From Hyphomonadaceae bacterium (GTDB lineage: Bacteria > Pseudomonadota > Alphaproteobacteria > Caulobacterales > Maricaulaceae), in NCBI GenBank assembly GCA_014324115.1, contig JACOMS010000011.1, positions 1-34,404 of the forward strand: a stretch of DNA of 34,404 nucleotides, given 5' to 3'. Both the position numbers and the translations under genes were made by a program. The notes beneath the pieces are model-generated. The model made no database searches, was not told the origin of the DNA, and saw nothing but the letters and a program-made list of their open reading frames with translations. Below are positions 3,389-33,527 of this stretch, piece after piece. The stretch's first letter is position 1. Every line of letters begins with the position of its first letter.

Positions 3389-3778
3389 ATGGCTTCTGAA
3401 TGGAACGATCCGCGACCCATGGCGCCGCATTTACAAATCTGGCGCTGGCACCCGGCGATGATGTCATCCATCCTGCACCGGGCCTCGGCCATCATTTGCT
3501 ATGCCGGGCTGATAAAAGTGGCTTTGGGATTGCTGATATTGGCTTTGACAGGCTCCCTGCCCCTGGAGAGTCTGATATTTTCTCCCGTGGGGGCGTTTGG
3601 ACTATTCGTTTTTCTATCTGCTTTCATTTTTACGGCCTTTGCGCAACTGCGTCATGCCGTTTGGGATCGCGGCGGTATGTTCGATCCCGATATGAATAAC
3701 AGGCTTTCTTGGGTGATGATTGTCAGCGCCTTGATTCTGGCGTTGCTTTTAACCATCCTGGCAACAGGAGTGCTGTAA
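3389..3778 (+). CDS. sdhC: Succinate dehydrogenase cytochrome b556 subunit
   Basis: This is the first membrane anchor subunit of complex II, which with SdhD holds heme b and the ubiquinone site in the inner membrane. The 129-residue product carries the family signature at its N-terminus (RPMAPHLQIWRW, then SILHRAS at 27-33, where Ser27 and Arg31 match the quinone-site residues of the E. coli protein). Three membrane helices follow (about 33-55, 66-88 and 107-128). The axial heme ligand is His89 in RHAVWDRGG. The stop codon overlaps the sdhD start by one base (TAATG), so translation is coupled. Length and motifs are normal for the family. Confidence 0.93.
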   Translation: MASEWNDPRPMAPHLQIWRWHPAMMSSILHRASAIICYAGLIKVALGLLILALTGSLPLESLIFSPVGAFGLFVFLSAFIFTAFAQLRHAVWDRGGMFDPDMNNRLSWVMIVSALILALLLTILATGVL

Positions 3779-4113
3779 TGTCGGCCAAGGGAACCACACA
3801 TCACAAAATACACGGTCTGACAGGTTGGGGGCTGATTATCGGTCTACCCTTCGCGATTTTCGGTGCGCTGAAAGCGATTGGCGGTGGCTCACAAGGTTTT
3901 GTGGACTGGCTGTCTTCGCCGACGGGCGCCGTCGGATTCCTGGCGTTTGCTACGGCGGCTATCTGGTACTGCAAGCTCGAATTTGATGAGGTGGTCATGG
4001 ATTACACGGATGGCGGCTTGCGTTCACTGGGCCTGAATTTGAACCGCCTGGTCGCTCTGGCCATTTGGGCGGTTTCCGCCTTCGCCGTTTTGAAACTCTG
4101 GTTGGGAGCCTGA
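3778..4113 (+). CDS. sdhD: Succinate dehydrogenase hydrophobic membrane anchor subunit
   Basis: This 111-residue, three-helix protein (about 16-36, 48-64 and 88-110) sits between sdhC and sdhA and is the second anchor subunit. The family's helix-2 motif is H-x11-D-Y: the His binds heme b, and the Asp-Tyr (D82-Y83 in E. coli) is at the quinone site. Here Asp75-Tyr76 are present with the expected spacing, but the residue 12 before Tyr76 is Tyr64 ([14 protein letters not shown]), not His. Cys65 is adjacent. The other heme ligand, in SdhC, is intact. The start is the ATG of TAATG at the end of sdhC; a longer upstream frame would run inside sdhC. The identity is supported by position and the DY motif. 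Confidence 0.82.
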
Positions 4114-4120
4114 ATACACC

Positions 4121-5905
4121 ATGGCTGAATGGATTGATCACACGTATGATGTCGTCGTCATCGGGGCTGGCGGGGCCGGCCTGCGCGCCACCCTTGGGGC
4201 TGCTCGCGAAGGCCTGAAAACCGCTTGTATAACCAAAGTCTTCCCGACGCGCTCGCACACCGTGGCGGCACAGGGTGGTATCGCCGCATCACTTGGCAAC
4301 ATGGGGCCTGATGATTGGCGCTGGCACATGTATGACACCGTCAAGGGGTCTGACTGGCTCGGCGACCAGGACTCAATCGAATACCTCTGCCGCAATGCGC
4401 CGGATTCCGTGTACGAGCTTGAAAACTGGGGGATGCCGTTTTCGCGAAATGAAGACGGCAAAATCTATCAACGCCCGTTTGGGGGTCACACGACCGAATT
4501 CGGCGAAGGTCCACCGGTGCAGCGCACATGCGCCGCTGCCGACCGCACAGGTCATGCCATGCTGCATACGCTTTATGGCCAGTCCGTACGCAAAAAGGCC
4601 GAGTTCTTTGTCGAGTATTTCGCTATTGATCTCATCATGGATAACGATGTCTGCCGCGGGGTCACAGCCTGGAAACTTGACGACGGTACGCTCCACCGTT
4701 TCCGGGCCCAGACCGTCGTGCTTGCAACAGGCGGTTATGGGCGCGTGTTTTTCTCCGCCACGTCGGCCCACACATGTACCGGTGACGGATCCGCCATGGT
4801 GGTGCGCGCCGGATTGCCCGTTCAGGATATGGAGTTTATCCAGTTCCATCCGACCGGAATTTACGGTGCGGGTTGTCTGATCACCGAAGGCGCCCGCGGT
4901 GAGGGCGGATACCTGACCAATTCCGAGGGTGAGCGCTTTATGGAGCGCTATGCACCGAGTGTAAAAGACCTCGCTTCTCGTGATGTCGTCTCCCGCGCCA
5001 TGGTTGTGGAAATCCGGGAAGGACGCGGTGTCGGCAAAAACAGAGACCATATTTTCCTGCATCTTGATCATCTTGACCCGGAAGTCCTGGCCCGGCGCCT
5101 GCCGGGAATTTCTGAAACGGCCAAGGTCTTTGCCGGGATTGACCTGACCAAAGATCCCATTCCCGTCATCCCGACCTGCCATTACAACATGGGCGGCATT
5201 CAGACCAATTATCACGGCGAGGTCGTAACCAAAAAAGGCGAGAACCCGGATGCGGTGGTTCCGGGCCTGATGGCGGTGGGCGAGGCTGGATGTGTGTCCG
5301 TTCACGGTGCAAACCGTCTCGGTTCGAACTCGCTGATTGATCTGGTGGTATTCGGTCGTGCGGCCGGTTTGCGCCTCGGGGAAACACTCAGGGCCGACGC
5401 GACACAACCCGACCTGTCCAGGGATGCGGGTGACGCCCATCTTGAGCGTTTTGAAAAGGCCCGCAATGCGAGTGGCGGCACGCCGACGGCGGTTATCCGG
5501 GACAGGCTGCAACGCGCCATGCAGGAGCATTGCGCCGTATTCCGTACGACGAAGAGCCTGGCCGAGGGTGTCGAGAAACTTGAAGGCATACGCGATATGA
5601 TGGATGATGTCGCGGTGTCCGACCGGACCATGATCTGGAATACAGACCTGGTGGAAACCCTTGAACTACAAAATCTTGTGGCTAACGCGCTTGTCACGGT
5701 TAATTCCGCTGCCAATCGTCTGGAAACACGCGGCGCCCATGCGCACGAGGACTATCCGGAGCGCGATGATAAAAACTGGATGAAACATACGCTGGCCTAT
5801 TTGGATGGAGACACGGGTAAGGTCAAAATCGACTACCGTCCCGTGCATGAGTTCACCATGACGGACGAGATTAAATACATCGAGCCGAAAAAACGGGTGT
5901 ATTAA
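4121..5905 (+). CDS. sdhA: Succinate dehydrogenase flavoprotein subunit
   Basis: The catalytic subunit of complex II oxidises succinate to fumarate on the cytoplasmic face with covalent FAD. The 594-residue length is standard. The sequence shows the dinucleotide-binding GAGGAG at 15-20, the flavinylation His46 in [10 protein letters not shown], the substrate-binding region around [21 protein letters not shown], and the [18 protein letters not shown] element near the end of the FAD domain. It lies 7 bases after sdhD in the same operon. The usual next gene, sdhB for the iron-sulfur subunit, is absent: sqdB follows instead, so SdhB must be encoded elsewhere if the complex is to work. Confidence 0.97.
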
Positions 5906-5972: not shown

Positions 5973-7193
5973 ATGAAAATAGCAGTTCTGGGCGGTGACG
6001 GATTTTGCGGTTGGCCGACCGCTTTAAGCCTGTCTGACAAAGGTCATGATGTTCACATCATCGACAATCTTTCCCGCCGCTGGATTGACGCGGAGCTGGG
6101 CGTACAGTCGCTGACACCTGTGGATTCGATACAGGAGCGCCAGCGGGTGTGGTACGAAATCACCGGGCGTCGCATTCATTTTCACCTGATTGATATTGCC
6201 GGAGATTACGAAGTTATCAAGCAATGGCTGGGCAAGCACCGTCCGGATGCTGTTATCCATTTTGCCGAACAGCGCGCCGCGCCCTATTCCATGAAGTCGC
6301 CGCATCACAAGGCTTACACCGTTAACAATAATGTCAACGCGACTCATAACATCCTCAACGCGTTGGTTGAGGTTGATCTGGACGCACATCTTGTCCACCT
6401 TGGCACGATGGGGGTTTACGGCTATTCATCTATCGGTGCGGCCATTCCCGAGGGCTATCTGGGCGTGGATATCGCTACACTTGACGGCAGGAAGAAGACG
6501 ACCGAAATTCTCTATCCGGCCAATCCGGGCTCCATCTATCATATGACCAAATGTATGGATCAGCTCCTTTTTGCCTACTACGCCAAGAATGACGGTATGC
6601 GCATCACCGACCTGCATCAAGGCATTGTCTGGGGCACACACACGACACAGACCCGCCTGCATGAACAGCTGATCAACCGTTTCGATTATGACGGAGACTA
6701 CGGAACCGTGCTTAATCGATTCCTCATTCAGGCGGCGGTTGGCTATCCGCTAACCGTGCACGGCACAGGTGGGCAGACCCGTGCTTTCATTCATTTGCAG
6801 GATTCGGTCAAATGCATAGAAATTGCGCTCAATAACCCGCCGAAAAAAGGTGACCGTGTTGAGGTTTTCAACCAGATGACAGAAACACACCGGGTGAGGG
6901 ATCTGGCCAGGCTGATCCAAAAAATGACAGGCTGCGAGATTATCAATATCCCAAACCCCCGCAAGGAAGCGGCGGAAAATGACTTGGTGGTCAAAAACGA
7001 CAAATTCCTCAACCTTGGTCTCAACCCGATCACCCTAAAGGAGGGTCTTCTGGACGAAGTTGTTGAAATCGCCAGAAGATATAACCGCCGCATTGATCGC
7101 TCCCGCATTGTCGCGACTTCGGCTTGGACGAAAAATATTGCAAAAACACTTATCCATGATCCGGAAAGCAAGGGGCTGAAGTCGGTTGGGTAA
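5973..7193 (+). CDS. sqdB: UDP-sulfoquinovose synthase
   Basis: SqdB/SQD1 converts UDP-glucose and sulfite to UDP-sulfoquinovose, the head-group donor of the sulfolipid SQDG. The 406-residue protein is an extended short-chain dehydrogenase with the NAD-binding GGDGFCGWP near its start. It also has the DNLSRR element, FAEQRAAPYSM at 97-107, the catalytic Thr145 in LGTMG, and Tyr189/Lys193 in YHMTK, all at positions matching plant SQD1 and bacterial SqdB. The ATG at 5973 is chosen because the family begins directly with MKIAVLGGDG; a TTG at 5949 and an ATG at 5958 are in-frame alternatives. It lies 67 bases after sdhA, without an obvious terminator between, so read-through from the sdh promoter is possible. 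Confidence 0.93.
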   Translation: MKIAVLGGDGFCGWPTALSLSDKGHDVHIIDNLSRRWIDAELGVQSLTPVDSIQERQRVWYEITGRRIHFHLIDIAGDYEVIKQWLGKHRPDAVIHFAEQRAAPYSMKSPHHKAYTVNNNVNATHNILNALVEVDLDAHLVHLGTMGVYGYSSIGAAIPEGYLGVDIATLDGRKKTTEILYPANPGSIYHMTKCMDQLLFAYYAKNDGMRITDLHQGIVWGTHTTQTRLHEQLINRFDYDGDYGTVLNRFLIQAAVGYPLTVHGTGGQTRAFIHLQDSVKCIEIALNNPPKKGDRVEVFNQMTETHRVRDLARLIQKMTGCEIINIPNPRKEAAENDLVVKNDKFLNLGLNPITLKEGLLDEVVEIARRYNRRIDRSRIVATSAWTKNIAKTLIHDPESKGLKSVG

Positions 7194-7543: not shown

Positions 7544-8365
7544 ATGATTAAAGCCGAAACCGCCTATGTTACGCTTCTGACGCATCACGCCTATCTGCCG
7601 GGGGCGGTGGCTTTGGTTCGGTCACTGACATTGACGGGGACGACTGCCGATATTGTTATCCTGCACACCGAAGGTATTGTAACGGATATGCTCAAACCAT
7701 TGGTCAATCTGGGCGCAAAGCCGGTGCAGGTTGATCTACTTGATGTGTCGGATGAATTTCGACAGACGCACCGCAAAGATAAAATCCATGGTGATGCGCC
7801 CTTTACCAAGGGCCGCAAGCCCGATTTCCATACACCGCTGGCCAATTTTGCCAAGCTACGACTCTGGCAGTTGACCCAATACGACAAAGTGGTCTTTCTT
7901 GATGCCGATGTAATTGTAATCCGCAACATAGACGCACTATTCGACTACCCCGAATTCTGCGGTGCGCCAAACGTCTACGAGTCTCTAAGAGATTTCCATC
8001 GTCTCAATAGCGGTGTGTTCACGGCCAAGCCGTCCGAGATCACATTTAGTGCTATGATGGACAAACTCGACACGCCTGGTGTGTTCTGGCAGCGTACGGA
8101 CCAGACTTTCCTCCAGAGCTATTTTCCAGACTGGCACGGCCTGCCGATTTTCTATAACACCCTGCAATACATCTGGTTCAATCTACCGGAGCTCTGGAAC
8201 TGGAACAGTGTCAGGGTTATCCACTACCAGTATGAAAAACCGTGGGAAACGGATAATCCCCGCGCACGTCGGCTCGGCCCGCTTATTGATATATGGCAGG
8301 CTTATTGTTCGGGTAAGGACATTCCTGAATTCTCCGATATGCCAAACCCATCATTTCGAATTTGA
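7544..8365 (+). CDS. sqdD: Glycogenin-like (GT8) glycosyltransferase, sulfolipid SqdD
   Basis: This 273-residue retaining glycosyltransferase of family GT8 has the start pattern AYVTLLTHHAYLPGAVAL and the metal- and nucleotide-binding DxD motif at Asp120-Ala-Asp122 (VVFLDADVIVI). It also has the NSGVFTAKPS and DQTFL elements typical of glycogenin-like enzymes. In Rhodobacter sphaeroides the sqdB-sqdD-sqdC operon encodes a glycogenin-like SqdD needed to use UDP-sulfoquinovose, and the same order here makes SqdD the best reading: transfer of sulfoquinovose to an acceptor at the cytoplasmic side. It ends six bases before sqdC. Family membership is clear; the SqdD role rests on gene order. Confidence 0.82.
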   Translation: MIKAETAYVTLLTHHAYLPGAVALVRSLTLTGTTADIVILHTEGIVTDMLKPLVNLGAKPVQVDLLDVSDEFRQTHRKDKIHGDAPFTKGRKPDFHTPLANFAKLRLWQLTQYDKVVFLDADVIVIRNIDALFDYPEFCGAPNVYESLRDFHRLNSGVFTAKPSEITFSAMMDKLDTPGVFWQRTDQTFLQSYFPDWHGLPIFYNTLQYIWFNLPELWNWNSVRVIHYQYEKPWETDNPRARRLGPLIDIWQAYCSGKDIPEFSDMPNPSFRI

Positions 8366-8371
8366 CAAAGA

Positions 8372-9337
8372 GTGACCCGGGTCGTTATCAGTGGCGGCAC
8401 AGGTTATGTCGGGCGGTTTATTGTTGAGGAATGCCTGACTGAAGGCTGGAACGTGACAATCATGGGCCGGACGCCCCCTGTCTATGGTTATTTTTCCGCG
8501 CCGGTCACATTCATTCAGGCTGAGCTGGGTCATAACCACAGTTATGCCGACGCCTTTGAAAATACAGACTACTTCGTTCATGCCGCCTTTGACCATATCC
8601 CGGGAAAGTATCGTGGCGGTGAAGGCGATAACCCAAAAGGCTTTGTACTCAAAAATCTCGGTGGGTCGACGGCGCTATTCAAACAGGCCAAGGCGGCGGG
8701 AGTAAAAAAACTGGTCCTCCTCTCAAGCCGTGCGGTCTACGGCACACAAAAGCCCGGCGTCAATCTCCATGAAGATGAAATGTCTGATCCCGACACACTC
8801 TACGGCAAGGTCAAATATGAGCTTGAGCAAATCCTTGAAAAAATGAGCGGCCCTGATTTTTTCGGCATCTCTTTACGAGTCACAGGGGTTTACGGACTGG
8901 CCGGTACAGGCAAGTCGCATAAATGGGAAAAACTCTTTGAGGATTTTGCGGACGGGAAACACATCCCGTCCCGAATCGGAACCGAAGTCCACGGAGCGGA
9001 TGTGGCGCAGGCTGTCACACTGGTCTTGAAAACGGATGAGAAGAAACTTGCGGGCTTGCATGTGTTCAATGTGTCAGATGTACCGATTGACCGTCGCGAT
9101 ATATTACGGCCGTTACGTCATATTATGGGCGTAGGTCACCCCTTGCCGACCCGTGCCGACAAGTCTGTCTTGAATGTCATGAACACGGACCGGATCAGGA
9201 ATATGGGCTGGCGCGCCGCTGACCCGTTGAAATTTACCTTTACGCTTGACGAGCTCATTGATGACTGGGTGCGCGGTCGATTTGGCAAACAGGCCACAGG
9301 ACAGGCAAGTCCCTCCGCCTGTCCCCGGGACTCTTGA
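8372..9337 (+). CDS. sqdC: NAD-dependent epimerase/dehydratase-like protein, probable SqdC
   Basis: This 321-residue extended short-chain dehydrogenase has the Rossmann glycine motif GGTGYVG at 8-14, a conserved Ser pair in LVLLSSRAVYG and a YGKVK (YxxxK) catalytic pair. It starts with GTG six bases after sqdD ends. In Rhodobacter sphaeroides the third gene of the sqdBDC operon is SqdC, a reductase-like protein whose loss leads to accumulation of sulfoquinovosyl-dihydroxyacetone, so it is thought to act on the head-group intermediate. The assignment here rests on order and fold rather than on a specific motif; another nucleotide-sugar epimerase is the alternative. sqdA, the acyltransferase gene, is not in the window. 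Confidence 0.7.
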   Translation: MTRVVISGGTGYVGRFIVEECLTEGWNVTIMGRTPPVYGYFSAPVTFIQAELGHNHSYADAFENTDYFVHAAFDHIPGKYRGGEGDNPKGFVLKNLGGSTALFKQAKAAGVKKLVLLSSRAVYGTQKPGVNLHEDEMSDPDTLYGKVKYELEQILEKMSGPDFFGISLRVTGVYGLAGTGKSHKWEKLFEDFADGKHIPSRIGTEVHGADVAQAVTLVLKTDEKKLAGLHVFNVSDVPIDRRDILRPLRHIMGVGHPLPTRADKSVLNVMNTDRIRNMGWRAADPLKFTFTLDELIDDWVRGRFGKQATGQASPSACPRDS

Positions 9338-26074: not shown

Positions 26075-28284
<2,210 letters not shown>

Positions 28285-30401: not shown

Positions 30402-30557
30402 CGCCCGGCGGATTTTATACAACCTGAAATCACCGCCTCCCGCTGATGACAGGATTGAGGGGTGATGCCAACTCTCGACAGAGGCCCCTCCCCCTGCTAG
30501 ATGTTGCGCAGTGCGGCTTTTTGACCGCCGGTTGTGACCTGTGGACATGACAGTAAC

Positions 30558-33527
30558 ATGAGAACAGAAAACGAAATCGAGCAGGAGCTTATCAAAAAAC
30601 TGATCGGCCTGAACTATTCCTATCGGGCCGACATTCGGGATCGGGAGGCTCTGGAAGCGAACTTCCGGGAGAAGTTTGAGGCCCTCAACCGCGTCAGACT
30701 GACCGACACCGAATTCGCCCGTCTGCTCAATTCCATCGTTACCCCGGATGTTTACGCCAACGCCGAAGCCTTGCGGAATATGGAGAATTTTGAGCGGGAG
30801 GACGGGACACCGCTGAAATATCAACTCGTCAATCTGGAGGACTGGTGCAAAAACAGCTTTGAAGTGGTCAACCAGCTTCGCATCAACACCCGCAGCAGCC
30901 ACCACCGTTATGATGTCATCGTGTTGATCAACGGGTTACCGCTCGTGCAGATTGAGCTGAAATCCCTTGAGGTTTCACCCCGACGGGCGATGGAACAGAT
31001 CATCAAATATCGCAACGATTCCGGAAACGGCTACGGGAACAGCCTGTTGTGCTTCATGCAGCTGTTCATCGTGAGCAATCGCGGCCAGACCTGGTATTTT
31101 GCCAACAACAATGATGCGCACTTCCGGTTTGACGTAAAAGAGCGGTTTCTGCCGGTCTACACATGGGCCACGCCGGACAACAGGAAAGTGGTGCACCTGA
31201 ACGCATTTGCGGATCAATTTCTTGCCAAGTGCCCGCTGGCGGAGATGATCAGCCGGTACATGGTCCTGATCTGGAATGAGCGCAAACTCATGATGATGCG
31301 CCCCTATCAGATCTACGCGGTTAAAGCCATGGTCGACTGTATCCGCGAAAACCGGGGAAACGGCTATATCTGGCACACGACGGGGTCGGGAAAGACGCTG
31401 ACCTCCTTCAAGGCGTCCACACTTCTGAAGGGTAATCCCGATATTGAAAAGTGCCTGTTCGTCGTCGACCGCAAGGACCTCGACCGGCAGACCCGGGAGG
31501 AATTCAACCGGTTTCAGCCCGGTTGTGTCGAGGAGAACACCAACACCCGGACCCTCGTGCAGCGTCTGCTCTCCCGTGATTACAGGGACAAGGTGATCGT
31601 CACCACCATTCAGAAACTCGGCCTGGCCCTGGCCGACAAAAAACAGCATCGCGAGCAGTTGCGATCGCTGCGCCATACACGTATCGTATTCATCTTTGAT
31701 GAATGTCACCGTTCCCAGTTCGGCGAGAACCACGAGGCCATTCGCGATTTTTTCCCCGAAGCCCGGCTGTTCGGGTTTACCGGGACCCCGATCTTTGACA
31801 AAAACGCCACCTCCCGGCGCATTGAAGGCGATCAGGCCCGCCTCGCCACCACCGCCGACATTTTCCAGAATCGGCTGCACGCCTACACCATCACCCACGC
31901 CATTGATGACGGCAATGTGCTGCAGTTTCACATCGATTATTTCAAACCCAAAGATACAGGGGCACCGGTCAAACCCGGCGAACCCCTAGCCCGGCAGGCC
32001 GCCGTCGAGGCCATTCTTGAAAAGCACGACGCGCTTACGAACCGGCGCAAGTTCAACGCCCTGATGGCCACGGCCTCGATTAACGATGCCATTGCATACT
32101 ACCGCCTGTTCAGGGAGGTTCAGGCCGAACGGGCCAGGACTTATGAAGAGTTTATCCCCCTCGGGATTGCCTGCGTCTTCTCGCCGCCTGCCGGGGGCGA
32201 CCGGGACGTTGCCCAGTTACAGGAGGACCTGCCGCAGGAAAAGGCCGACAACACCGTTGAGCCCGACCGCAAAAAAGCCGCCCTTGCAGACATAATCTCC
32301 GACTACAATGCCCGCTACGGCACCGGTCATGACCTGGCGGATTTTGATCTCTACTATCAGGACGTGCAGCAGCGCATAAAGAGCCAGAAATATCCCGATA
32401 CCGACCTGCCGCGCAAACAGAAGATCGACATTACCATTGTTGTGGACATGCTGCTCACCGGGTTTGACTCGCAGTATCTCAATACGCTCTATGTGGACAA
32501 GGCCCTCAAATATCACGGCCTCATCCAGGGGTTTTCGCGCACCAACCGGGTGCTTGACGGTTCCAAACCTTTCGGCAACATCCTCGACTTTCGCGCCCAG
32601 GGGGACGCCGTTGATGAGGCCATCGGGCTGTTCTCGGGTGAGGCGGACGCGAAAGGCGCCCGGGAAATCTGGCTGGTGGACCCGGCGCCCAAACTTATCG
32701 ACAGGCTGGAACAGGAAACCCGTCGGCTGAAGGACTTCATGACATCCCAGGGACTGGACGGCCGTCCCGAACGGGTGGCCGACCTCAAAGGTGATGAAGC
32801 CCGCGCCGCCTTCATCAACCGGTTCAGGGAGGTCCGCCGCCTGACCACCCGGCTCGATCAGTACACGGACCTCGACACCGGTGAGAAAGCGCAGATTGAA
32901 ACGCTCATGCCCCGCGACGACCTGCGCGCTTTTTCCGCCCAGTATATTGAGATGGCCACACGCCTGAAAAAACGGCGGTCCGGGACCGACAGTTCCGGTG
33001 ACACTATCGACAACCTGGAATTCGAGTTCGTGCTTTTTGACTCCGCGCTTATTGATTACGACTATATCATGAAGCTGGCGGCCCGCTTTTCCGAGGCCGG
33101 GCCGGAGAAGCGGAACATGACCCGGGAGGAGCTGATCGGCCTGATTTCCGGCAGCACGCGGCTGCTGGAAGAGCGTGACAGCATCAGGGACTTTATTTAC
33201 ACACTTGAGCCGGGCACGGGACGCAGCGAGACGGAAATCCGCGAAGACTATGTGCGTTTCAGGCATGACCGCCAAGTCGAAGAGACAGAGCACATCGCCG
33301 CGGAACACGGGCTTGCGGTCGAGGTCCTGCAGGACTTTATCGACGATATTCTGGGCGGTTATATTTTTGACGCCGCCGCCCTGACCGGGCTGTTCCGGCC
33401 CGGGGGGCTGGGCTGGAAGGCCCGCTTTGAGGCGGAGCAGGCGCTGATGCGGGATCTCATCCCGCTTTTGCACCGCCGGGCGGAAGGGCACGGGATTTCG
33501 GGGCTGGAAGCTTATGAAGAACGGTGA
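30558..33527 (+). CDS. hsdR: Type I restriction endonuclease subunit R
   Basis: HsdR is the motor and nuclease of a type I restriction system: it translocates unmethylated DNA and cleaves it at a distance. The 989-residue protein has the nuclease domain with Asp119 and Glu133-x-Lys135 (RYDV, then LVQIELK), followed by a superfamily 2 helicase with Walker A TTGSGKT at 274-280, DECH at 381-384 and FTGTP near 407-411. The helicase C-terminal lobe carries LLTGFDSQYLNTLYVDK and GFSRTNR. The arrangement resembles type IC enzymes such as EcoR124I. The ATG at 30558 is chosen; a GTG at 30534 lacks a ribosome site. The gene overlaps hsdS by 14 bases. hsdM is not in the window. Confidence 0.95.
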   Translation: MRTENEIEQELIKKLIGLNYSYRADIRDREALEANFREKFEALNRVRLTDTEFARLLNSIVTPDVYANAEALRNMENFEREDGTPLKYQLVNLEDWCKNSFEVVNQLRINTRSSHHRYDVIVLINGLPLVQIELKSLEVSPRRAMEQIIKYRNDSGNGYGNSLLCFMQLFIVSNRGQTWYFANNNDAHFRFDVKERFLPVYTWATPDNRKVVHLNAFADQFLAKCPLAEMISRYMVLIWNERKLMMMRPYQIYAVKAMVDCIRENRGNGYIWHTTGSGKTLTSFKASTLLKGNPDIEKCLFVVDRKDLDRQTREEFNRFQPGCVEENTNTRTLVQRLLSRDYRDKVIVTTIQKLGLALADKKQHREQLRSLRHTRIVFIFDECHRSQFGENHEAIRDFFPEARLFGFTGTPIFDKNATSRRIEGDQARLATTADIFQNRLHAYTITHAIDDGNVLQFHIDYFKPKDTGAPVKPGEPLARQAAVEAILEKHDALTNRRKFNALMATASINDAIAYYRLFREVQAERARTYEEFIPLGIACVFSPPAGGDRDVAQLQEDLPQEKADNTVEPDRKKAALADIISDYNARYGTGHDLADFDLYYQDVQQRIKSQKYPDTDLPRKQKIDITIVVDMLLTGFDSQYLNTLYVDKALKYHGLIQGFSRTNRVLDGSKPFGNILDFRAQGDAVDEAIGLFSGEADAKGAREIWLVDPAPKLIDRLEQETRRLKDFMTSQGLDGRPERVADLKGDEARAAFINRFREVRRLTTRLDQYTDLDTGEKAQIETLMPRDDLRAFSAQYIEMATRLKKRRSGTDSSGDTIDNLEFEFVLFDSALIDYDYIMKLAARFSEAGPEKRNMTREELIGLISGSTRLLEERDSIRDFIYTLEPGTGRSETEIREDYVRFRHDRQVEETEHIAAEHGLAVEVLQDFIDDILGGYIFDAAALTGLFRPGGLGWKARFEAEQALMRDLIPLLHRRAEGHGISGLEAYEER

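Follow-up and report, generated by a model that had tools for sequence, protein, structure and literature searches.

Complex II of a marine bacterial clade with a heme pocket that is probably filled by other side chains

The role of heme b in complex II is an old question, and the heme lies off the direct electron path. At the locus described here, the first-pass annotation had noticed a tyrosine in SdhD where the axial heme ligand histidine is expected, had regarded SdhC His89 as the intact second ligand, and had proposed that heme b would be coordinated by Tyr or Cys, be five-coordinate or be absent. Judged from the sequence comparisons given below, the genes very probably encode a working type C-derived succinate:ubiquinone reductase that has lost heme b from its membrane anchor.

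The sdhCDA locus and its heme ligand positions

The window, i.e. the whole stretch of DNA analysed (34,404 nucleotides), is contig 11 of genome G000 (completeness 90.2%). It carries sdhC, sdhD, and sdhA in the same order as in E. coli SdhCDAB, a type C SQR (1nek, 2wdq) with which it also shares three-helix membrane subunits and the quinone-site residues (Table 1). The sdhB gene of the same genome is located on a separate contig (G000:C69:10887-11576) and does not adjoin sdhCDA. In other genomes, sdhB was found ~4 to 11 kb beyond sdhA (G017, G021, G082, G083, G137), ~300 kb from it (G010) or within ~0.5 kb of it (G034). The gene after sdhA (window 5973-7193) resembles that of UDP-sulfoquinovose synthase (E 1.7e-103), although its score of 346.5 bits is below the curated cut-off (575), and together with a family 8 glycosyltransferase gene (7544-8365) and another epimerase gene (8372-9337) it possibly belongs to a sulfolipid or glycolipid cluster. 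The window also contains a gene for an HsdR-type type I restriction endonuclease (30534-33527, over the cut-off) and, on the opposite strand to it, one for a CcrM-like methyltransferase (27124-28239, below the cut-off).

Table 1. Genes and codons of the window discussed in the text. Residue counts refer to the 39 Tyr-type and 65 His-type SdhC-SdhD pairs defined below.
Feature	Position	Strand	Basis
sdhC, cytochrome b556-type membrane subunit, 129 aa	3389..3778	+	TIGR02970 (E 1.6e-19) and PF01127, both over cut-off
sdhD, hydrophobic membrane anchor, 111 aa	3778..4113	+	TIGR02968 (E 8.7e-5), below family cut-off; AlphaFold2 fold match
sdhA, flavoprotein subunit, 594 aa, directly after sdhD	4121..5905	+	PF00890 and PF02910 over cut-off
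SdhC Ala34 codon, near-invariant Gly34 site of heme-type SdhC	3488..3490	+	Tyr-type A33 S5 T1; His-type G63 A1 L1
SdhC Thr82 codon, site of E. coli axial heme ligand His84	3632..3634	+	Tyr-type M36 T2 L1; His-type H63 N2
SdhC Gln86 codon, E. coli Gly88 site	3644..3646	+	Gln in 39/39 Tyr-type; Gly in 63/65 His-type
SdhC His89 codon, at site of E. coli His91 and thus no axial ligand	3653..3655	+	Alignment; His91 role from available part of PMC3290573
SdhD Lys10 codon, E. coli Ile17 site	3805..3807	+	Tyr-type K32 R7; His-type I56 L4 V3 K1 N1
SdhD Gly13 codon, propionate-binding Arg20 site	3814..3816	+	Tyr-type G21 T8 S6 N3 K1; His-type R63 K2
SdhD Tyr64-Cys65 codons; Tyr64 (3967-3969) at site of E. 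coli axial ligand His71	3967..3972	+	Tyr in 39/39 Tyr-type; residue 65 C31 S4 A3 V1
SdhD Glu68 codon, E. coli Gly75 site; spacing as yeast Glu112	3979..3981	+	Glu in 39/39 Tyr-type; His-type G63 S1 A1
SdhD Asp75-Tyr76 codons, quinone-site pair	4000..4005	+	D and Y in 39/39 Tyr-type and 65/65 His-type

SdhD remained below the cut-offs of TIGR02968, PF01127, and DUF998, with DUF998 scoring slightly better than PF01127. A single-sequence search of PDB chains with SdhD gave nothing meaningful; with an SdhD profile, chains from E. coli, Mycobacterium, and vertebrates were retrieved, and yeast Sdh4 was not among the matches listed. The single-chain AlphaFold2 model of SdhD (13 rows, mean pLDDT 87.0) resembled E. 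coli 2wdq_D (Z 11.4, rmsd 2.2, 103 aligned) and, practically equally well, Mycobacterium 6lum_N (Z 11.5), as well as yeast Sdh4 9qdl_D (Z 9.9, rmsd 3.1, 92 aligned), while that of SdhC (12 rows, mean pLDDT 83.9) resembled E. coli 2wu2_C (Z 13.2) and 7jz2_C (Z 13.1, rmsd 2.0, 107 aligned). As helix bundles reach such Z values without kinship, and an unrelated receptor indeed reached Z 10.1 against the SdhC model, the models support fold and register only jointly with the sequence. The locus thus has the two homologous three-helix membrane subunits and the quinone site of type C. A class D enzyme such as E. coli fumarate reductase FrdABCD also has two membrane subunits, and it contains no heme, according to the available part of PMC10238741. 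In contrast to FrdABCD, the window SdhC is of the type C family by sequence, and the SdhC-SdhD tree places it and its relatives beside heme-type SdhC-SdhD. No Frd chain occurred among the SdhC sequence hits in PDB chains at E <= 1, and 1kf6_D ranked below the E. coli Sdh chains for both models (Z 9.2 vs 11.4 for SdhD, 9.0 vs 13.2 for SdhC).

For assignment of the heme ligands, the window SdhC stretch FIFTAFAQLRHAVWD was aligned to E. coli LAYHVVVGIRHMMMD and pig LMYHTWNGIRHLIWD, and no gaps were needed there. The E. coli SdhC ligand is His84, as is evident from PDB entry 2wu2, titled 'SdhC His84Met mutant', the sequence of which differs at residue 84; correspondingly, the title of 2wu5 names an SdhD His71Met mutant, and the substitution is visible in its sequence. 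The supposedly intact ligand His89 turned out to be the equivalent of E. coli His91, a residue within the hydrogen-bond network of the distal propionate (PMC3290573, available part), and the true ligand position is occupied by Thr82. The assignment of Tyr64 to the SdhD ligand position held: it precedes Tyr76 by 12 residues, is followed by Cys65, and Asp75-Tyr76 are present. His71, Gly75, and Asp82-Tyr83 of E. coli SdhD (MG1655) are spaced in the same way as Tyr64, Glu68, and Asp75-Tyr76 of the window. With Thr82 in SdhC and Tyr64 in SdhD, both axial ligands are missing and not just one. The ligand helices of the bis-His heme b protein of E. coli thus align gap-free with those of the window, although neither histidine of the type C arrangement, one per subunit around one heme b, is found here.

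Pocket residues in 39 related genomes

For determining the breadth of these changes, a 16-row profile of Tyr-type SdhD was run against 137 genomes of the family, which comprises Hellea/Robiginitomaculum relatives within the Caulobacterales, and 121 genomes matched at E <= 0.001. The 39 best matches (E <= 2e-39; next match E 1.7e-23) were taken as the Tyr-type set, one pair per genome and all distinct. Residues were counted in 105 distinct SdhC-SdhD pairs, consisting of these 39, 39 of the other 82 family matches, 26 pairs drawn from four further families of the order, and that of E. coli. At SdhD 71 (E. coli numbering is used for columns), Tyr occurred in 39 pairs, His in 65 including E. coli, and Gln in one. 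Tyrosine is therefore present in all 39 SdhD proteins of this one family, window included, which answers the question whether it is clade-wide. A sequencing error at codon 64, which had been considered as an explanation, is ruled out since every one of these strong relatives carries Tyr, including that of the single-contig genome G083. No other SdhC as close as E <= 1e-25 was found among 385 evenly drawn genomes of the class, the window's own included; this search is silent on unrelated losses.

None of the 39 Tyr-type pairs has either axial histidine. In the same rows, SdhC Gly34 and Gly88 and SdhD Gly75 and Arg20 are switched, with one row having Lys at position 20. The window and one other row have Thr at SdhC 84, and one row has Leu. 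SdhC 88 is Gly in 63 His-type pairs, Asp in one and Ile in one, vs Gln in all Tyr-type pairs; SdhC 87 is Ala in all 39 vs Asn in 57 and others in the remainder of the 65; and SdhD 23 is Gly in all 39 vs Ala (55), Ser (8) or Gly (2). The quinone-site residues SdhC Ser27 and Arg31 and SdhD Asp82 and Tyr83 are unchanged in both groups. Thus, as far as the alignments go, both ligands and the propionate arginine are lost, the glycines are replaced, and the quinone site is kept in all 39 genomes. When 231 columns were scored for divergence from 62 His-type rows (E. coli, L094, and L131 dropped), SdhD 75, SdhD 71, and SdhC 88 ranked first, SdhD 71 itself defining the groups. The pocket residues listed in the available part of PMC3290573 were enriched among group-differing columns only when the two ligand columns were counted (p 0.026; 0.13 without them), and against the 12-row sister set alone p was 0.25 with and 0.56 without the ligand columns.

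A probable heme-free anchor and its alternatives

The reading as a heme-free anchor follows from the loss of both ligands and of the propionate arginine and from the replacement of three glycines by larger residues, one of them a carboxylate. Some E. coli heme-ligand mutants keep heme. Because of such mutants, and because the E. coli complex with SdhC Met84 folds (2wu2 was solved), the sequence alone is no proof of heme absence. In the proposed enzyme, which would be active, electrons would leave FAD, travel along the three SdhB iron-sulfur clusters, and reach ubiquinone at a site that has stayed the same (SdhC Ser27/Arg31 and SdhD Asp75/Tyr76). The former heme pocket is probably filled by other side chains: SdhD Tyr64 would take the position of one ligand and Met, Thr or Leu that of the second, while the three glycine positions, now Glu, Gln, and Ala/Ser/Thr, would help to close it. 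In E. coli, complex II of a variant lacking the heme is still substantially active and permits growth on succinate (PMC3290573, available part). A defect in heme synthesis does not explain the loss, as ferrochelatase (hemH) was over the cut-off in all 12 genomes checked, 8 of them Tyr-type. In the same 12 genomes, there is one full-length copy of SdhA and one SdhB match each, the SdhB match of G136 having one internal stop, and SdhB His207, part of the propionate network in E. coli, is kept.

A comparable case is S. cerevisiae complex II (PDB 9qdl, 9qdm), for which the available part of PMC13066397 reports no heme in cryo-EM maps or spectra. There, Tyr108 is hydrogen-bonded to Sdh3 His156, Cys109 has no apparent role, and Glu112 stands in place of a glycine and forms a salt bridge to Arg97 that substitutes for the propionate (PMC13066397, same part). 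The spacing of yeast Tyr108-Cys109, Glu112, and Tyr120 equals that of Tyr64-Cys65-x2-Glu68-x7-Tyr76 in the window, and both Tyr at the SdhD ligand site and Glu four residues on are present in 39/39 Tyr-type pairs. By analogy, SdhD Glu68 may pair with SdhC Arg31. Since Sdh4 was not among the profile matches, this comparison rests on the residue numbers of PMC13066397 and the structural match to 9qdl_D. The yeast Sdh3-Sdh4 pair is, like the Tyr-type pair, thought to be derived from a heme-type anchor. However, yeast keeps the ligand His156 in Sdh3, whereas Tyr-type SdhC has Met, Thr or Leu, so that the Tyr-His bond of yeast cannot form; Tyr64 might instead hydrogen-bond to another partner on the SdhC side. 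Unlike yeast, the Tyr-type proteins also have Gln for SdhC Gly88, have lost SdhD Arg20, and are bacterial. The Tyr-type clade goes beyond yeast in that the SdhC histidine is lost too, and its origin appears to be independent of the yeast enzyme. SdhD Lys10 was considered as a counterpart of yeast Lys73, the partner of Sdh3 Asp167, and this equivalence was not established. Maklashina et al. (2010) reportedly dealt with a ligand mutant of E. coli and with heme ligation in yeast.

Retention of heme b with unusual ligands, e.g. SdhC Met82 together with SdhD Tyr64 or Cys65, or in a five-coordinate state, is the best of the alternatives and nevertheless improbable. Methionine is a usual heme ligand in other proteins. 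It occupies the SdhC site in 36/39 pairs, Tyr64 is invariant, and E. coli complexes with His84Met and His71Met were solved according to their PDB titles. Against this, the SdhC site is Thr in the window itself, Cys65 is replaced in 8/39 pairs and is therefore no conserved ligand, the three glycines and Arg20 are gone, and the yeast enzyme with the same Tyr-Cys motif is heme-free, without apparent contribution of Cys109 (PMC13066397, available part). Among the heme states proposed in the first-pass annotation, absence is hence best supported, and Tyr or Cys coordination opposite an SdhC histidine is impossible since that site holds only Met, Thr or Leu.

It is very unlikely that another histidine (SdhC His89, SdhD His8, His9 or His12) now ligates heme at a shifted site. 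SdhC His89 and SdhD His8 are invariant in the Tyr-type set, yet these columns are also His in most His-type pairs (52/65 and 49/65), which have the usual ligands, and His89 is seven residues, about two helical turns, off the ligand position. The other N-terminal SdhD histidines, named before as possible axial ligands, vary within the Tyr-type set (His9 column H in 26/39, His12 column H in 33/39). A decayed or secondary gene copy beside normal heme-type sdhCD elsewhere in the genome is scarcely credible: the window assembly is only 90.2% complete, but in each of the single-contig genomes G010 and G083, SdhD gave a single strong match, SdhC a single match, and SdhA a single full-length copy, and the invariant quinone-site residues across 39 pairs suggest that the genes are under constraint. 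Further hits in these two genomes were a flavoprotein with 33-40% identity, presumably L-aspartate oxidase, and in G010 two short partial SdhD-like matches. With an SdhC profile (E <= 0.001), no second, heme-type SdhC beside a Tyr-type one was found in 249 genomes of the order, which had at most one match each except G254 (two).

The Tyr-type anchors would thus be a bacterial parallel to the recently described heme-free enzyme of baker's yeast, and these proteins are probably misnamed when annotated as 'cytochrome b556 subunit'. In open-licence literature (titles and abstract starts), we found no report of a naturally heme-free bacterial type C complex II or of Hellea/Robiginitomaculum complex II, and no heme measurement in the Tyr-type clade was found in such literature. 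The available part of PMC8879329 has nothing on complex II of this family, and that of PMC13066397, a paper from 2026, names only yeast and some protists as having heme-free type C enzymes 'thus far'. The protists Tetrahymena and Perkinsus are reported there to have complex II without membrane heme (PMC13066397, available part); their divergent membrane domains, located in supercomplexes, are likened to the window by description only.

Possible exchange of anchor genes, and ligand losses elsewhere

Quick trees with SH-aLRT support only were used to trace the history of the genes. After removal of 16 pocket columns, the 39 Tyr-type SdhC-SdhD pairs formed one clade (support 100) within a 53-row clade (support 99), the other 14 rows of which group weakly (67) and comprise 12 pairs with both histidines, L089 (SdhD Gln), and L094 (SdhC Asn). 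L089 (G137) and L094 (G136) belong to one genus and have each lost a different ligand (SdhD Gln71 and SdhC Asn84, respectively). In both, SdhC Gly88 is replaced by Asp and SdhD Arg20 and Ile17 by Lys, which may reflect a single ancestral decay of the pocket.

A different picture emerges from the SdhA tree (99 rows), in which two His-type loci of genus g19, L019 (G027) and L088 (G129), are nested among the Tyr-type genomes, and keeping Tyr-type SdhA together was rejected (p 6.5e-7, 51-row tree). Genus g19 also includes the Tyr-type genomes G128 and G131. L088 and Tyr-type L066 (G131) of the same genus share 94.3% identity in SdhA (first 440 residues), vs 41% in SdhC and 35% in SdhD; for L019 and Tyr-type L031 (G086, genus g9), the values are 94.1%, 46%, and 29%. 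In blastn comparisons of both pairs, the match ends at the start of sdhA, with the exception of one 94-base patch in sdhC of L019/L031. The G129 assembly is 76% complete, that of G027 100% in 5 contigs. The simplest reading is that recombination swapped the two anchor genes together, and a movement of sdhA instead of sdhCD is conceivable. If the anchors are indeed heme-free, the heme-type sisters with 94%-identical SdhA would make it possible to compare directly how the presence or absence of heme affects turnover, superoxide leakage, and stability.

Ligand losses also occur elsewhere in the Proteobacteria, as seen from the order sample and a broader survey. In the order sample, L131 and L094 have SdhC Asn84 with SdhD His, and L089 has SdhD Gln71 with SdhC His84. 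For the survey, a mixed SdhC profile was run against genomes with completeness >= 90% and matched 129/153 of the class (E <= 1e-8) and 97/130 of the phylum (E <= 1e-6), and 156 loci representing part of these matches were analysed (56 best matches and 100 of 103 further listed regions, with at least genome G363 included twice). The residues at SdhC 84/SdhD 71/SdhD 75 were H/H/G in 149 loci, Y/H/E in three, and Y/V/E, H/Y/G, H/Y/S, and H/H/E in one each, so both ligands are kept in 150/156. The three Y/H/E loci are the mirror image of yeast, with Tyr in SdhC and His in SdhD. Glu75 was present in 4/6 ligand-lost vs 1/150 both-ligand loci (Fisher p 3e-6, uncorrected for kinship). A tree-corrected, underpowered comparison of 107 rows had 5 independent supported pairs. 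Of these, 1.5 showed Glu75 going along with ligand loss (median p 1) and 4.0 did so for any residue other than Gly, with 0.1 in the opposite direction (median p 0.125). A single clade of the four SdhC-Tyr rows was not rejected (p 0.35).

The chances are about even that bacteria can dispense with the heme b of type C complex II in the course of evolution, with several losses in Proteobacteria and recurring solutions, namely His to Tyr in either subunit and SdhD Gly75 to Glu as a stand-in for the propionate, and that the Hellea/Robiginitomaculum relatives have since exchanged heme-type and heme-free SdhCD before a near-unchanged SdhA, which would constitute a natural swap experiment on the role of the heme.

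The survey loci with a changed ligand or SdhD Glu75 are L193 (G781), L244 (G478), L257 (G470), L258 (G419), L260 (G397), L261 (G445), and L266 (G663), of which all except L266 come from genomes 1.2 to 2.0 Mb in size. Both histidines are retained in L266, but SdhD 75 is Glu, SdhC 88 is Arg, and SdhD 20 is Met. An annotated sdhC is also present in CAKLQH020000002.1 (254,532 bp), labelled as Acinetobacter phage, perhaps due to host DNA in the record.
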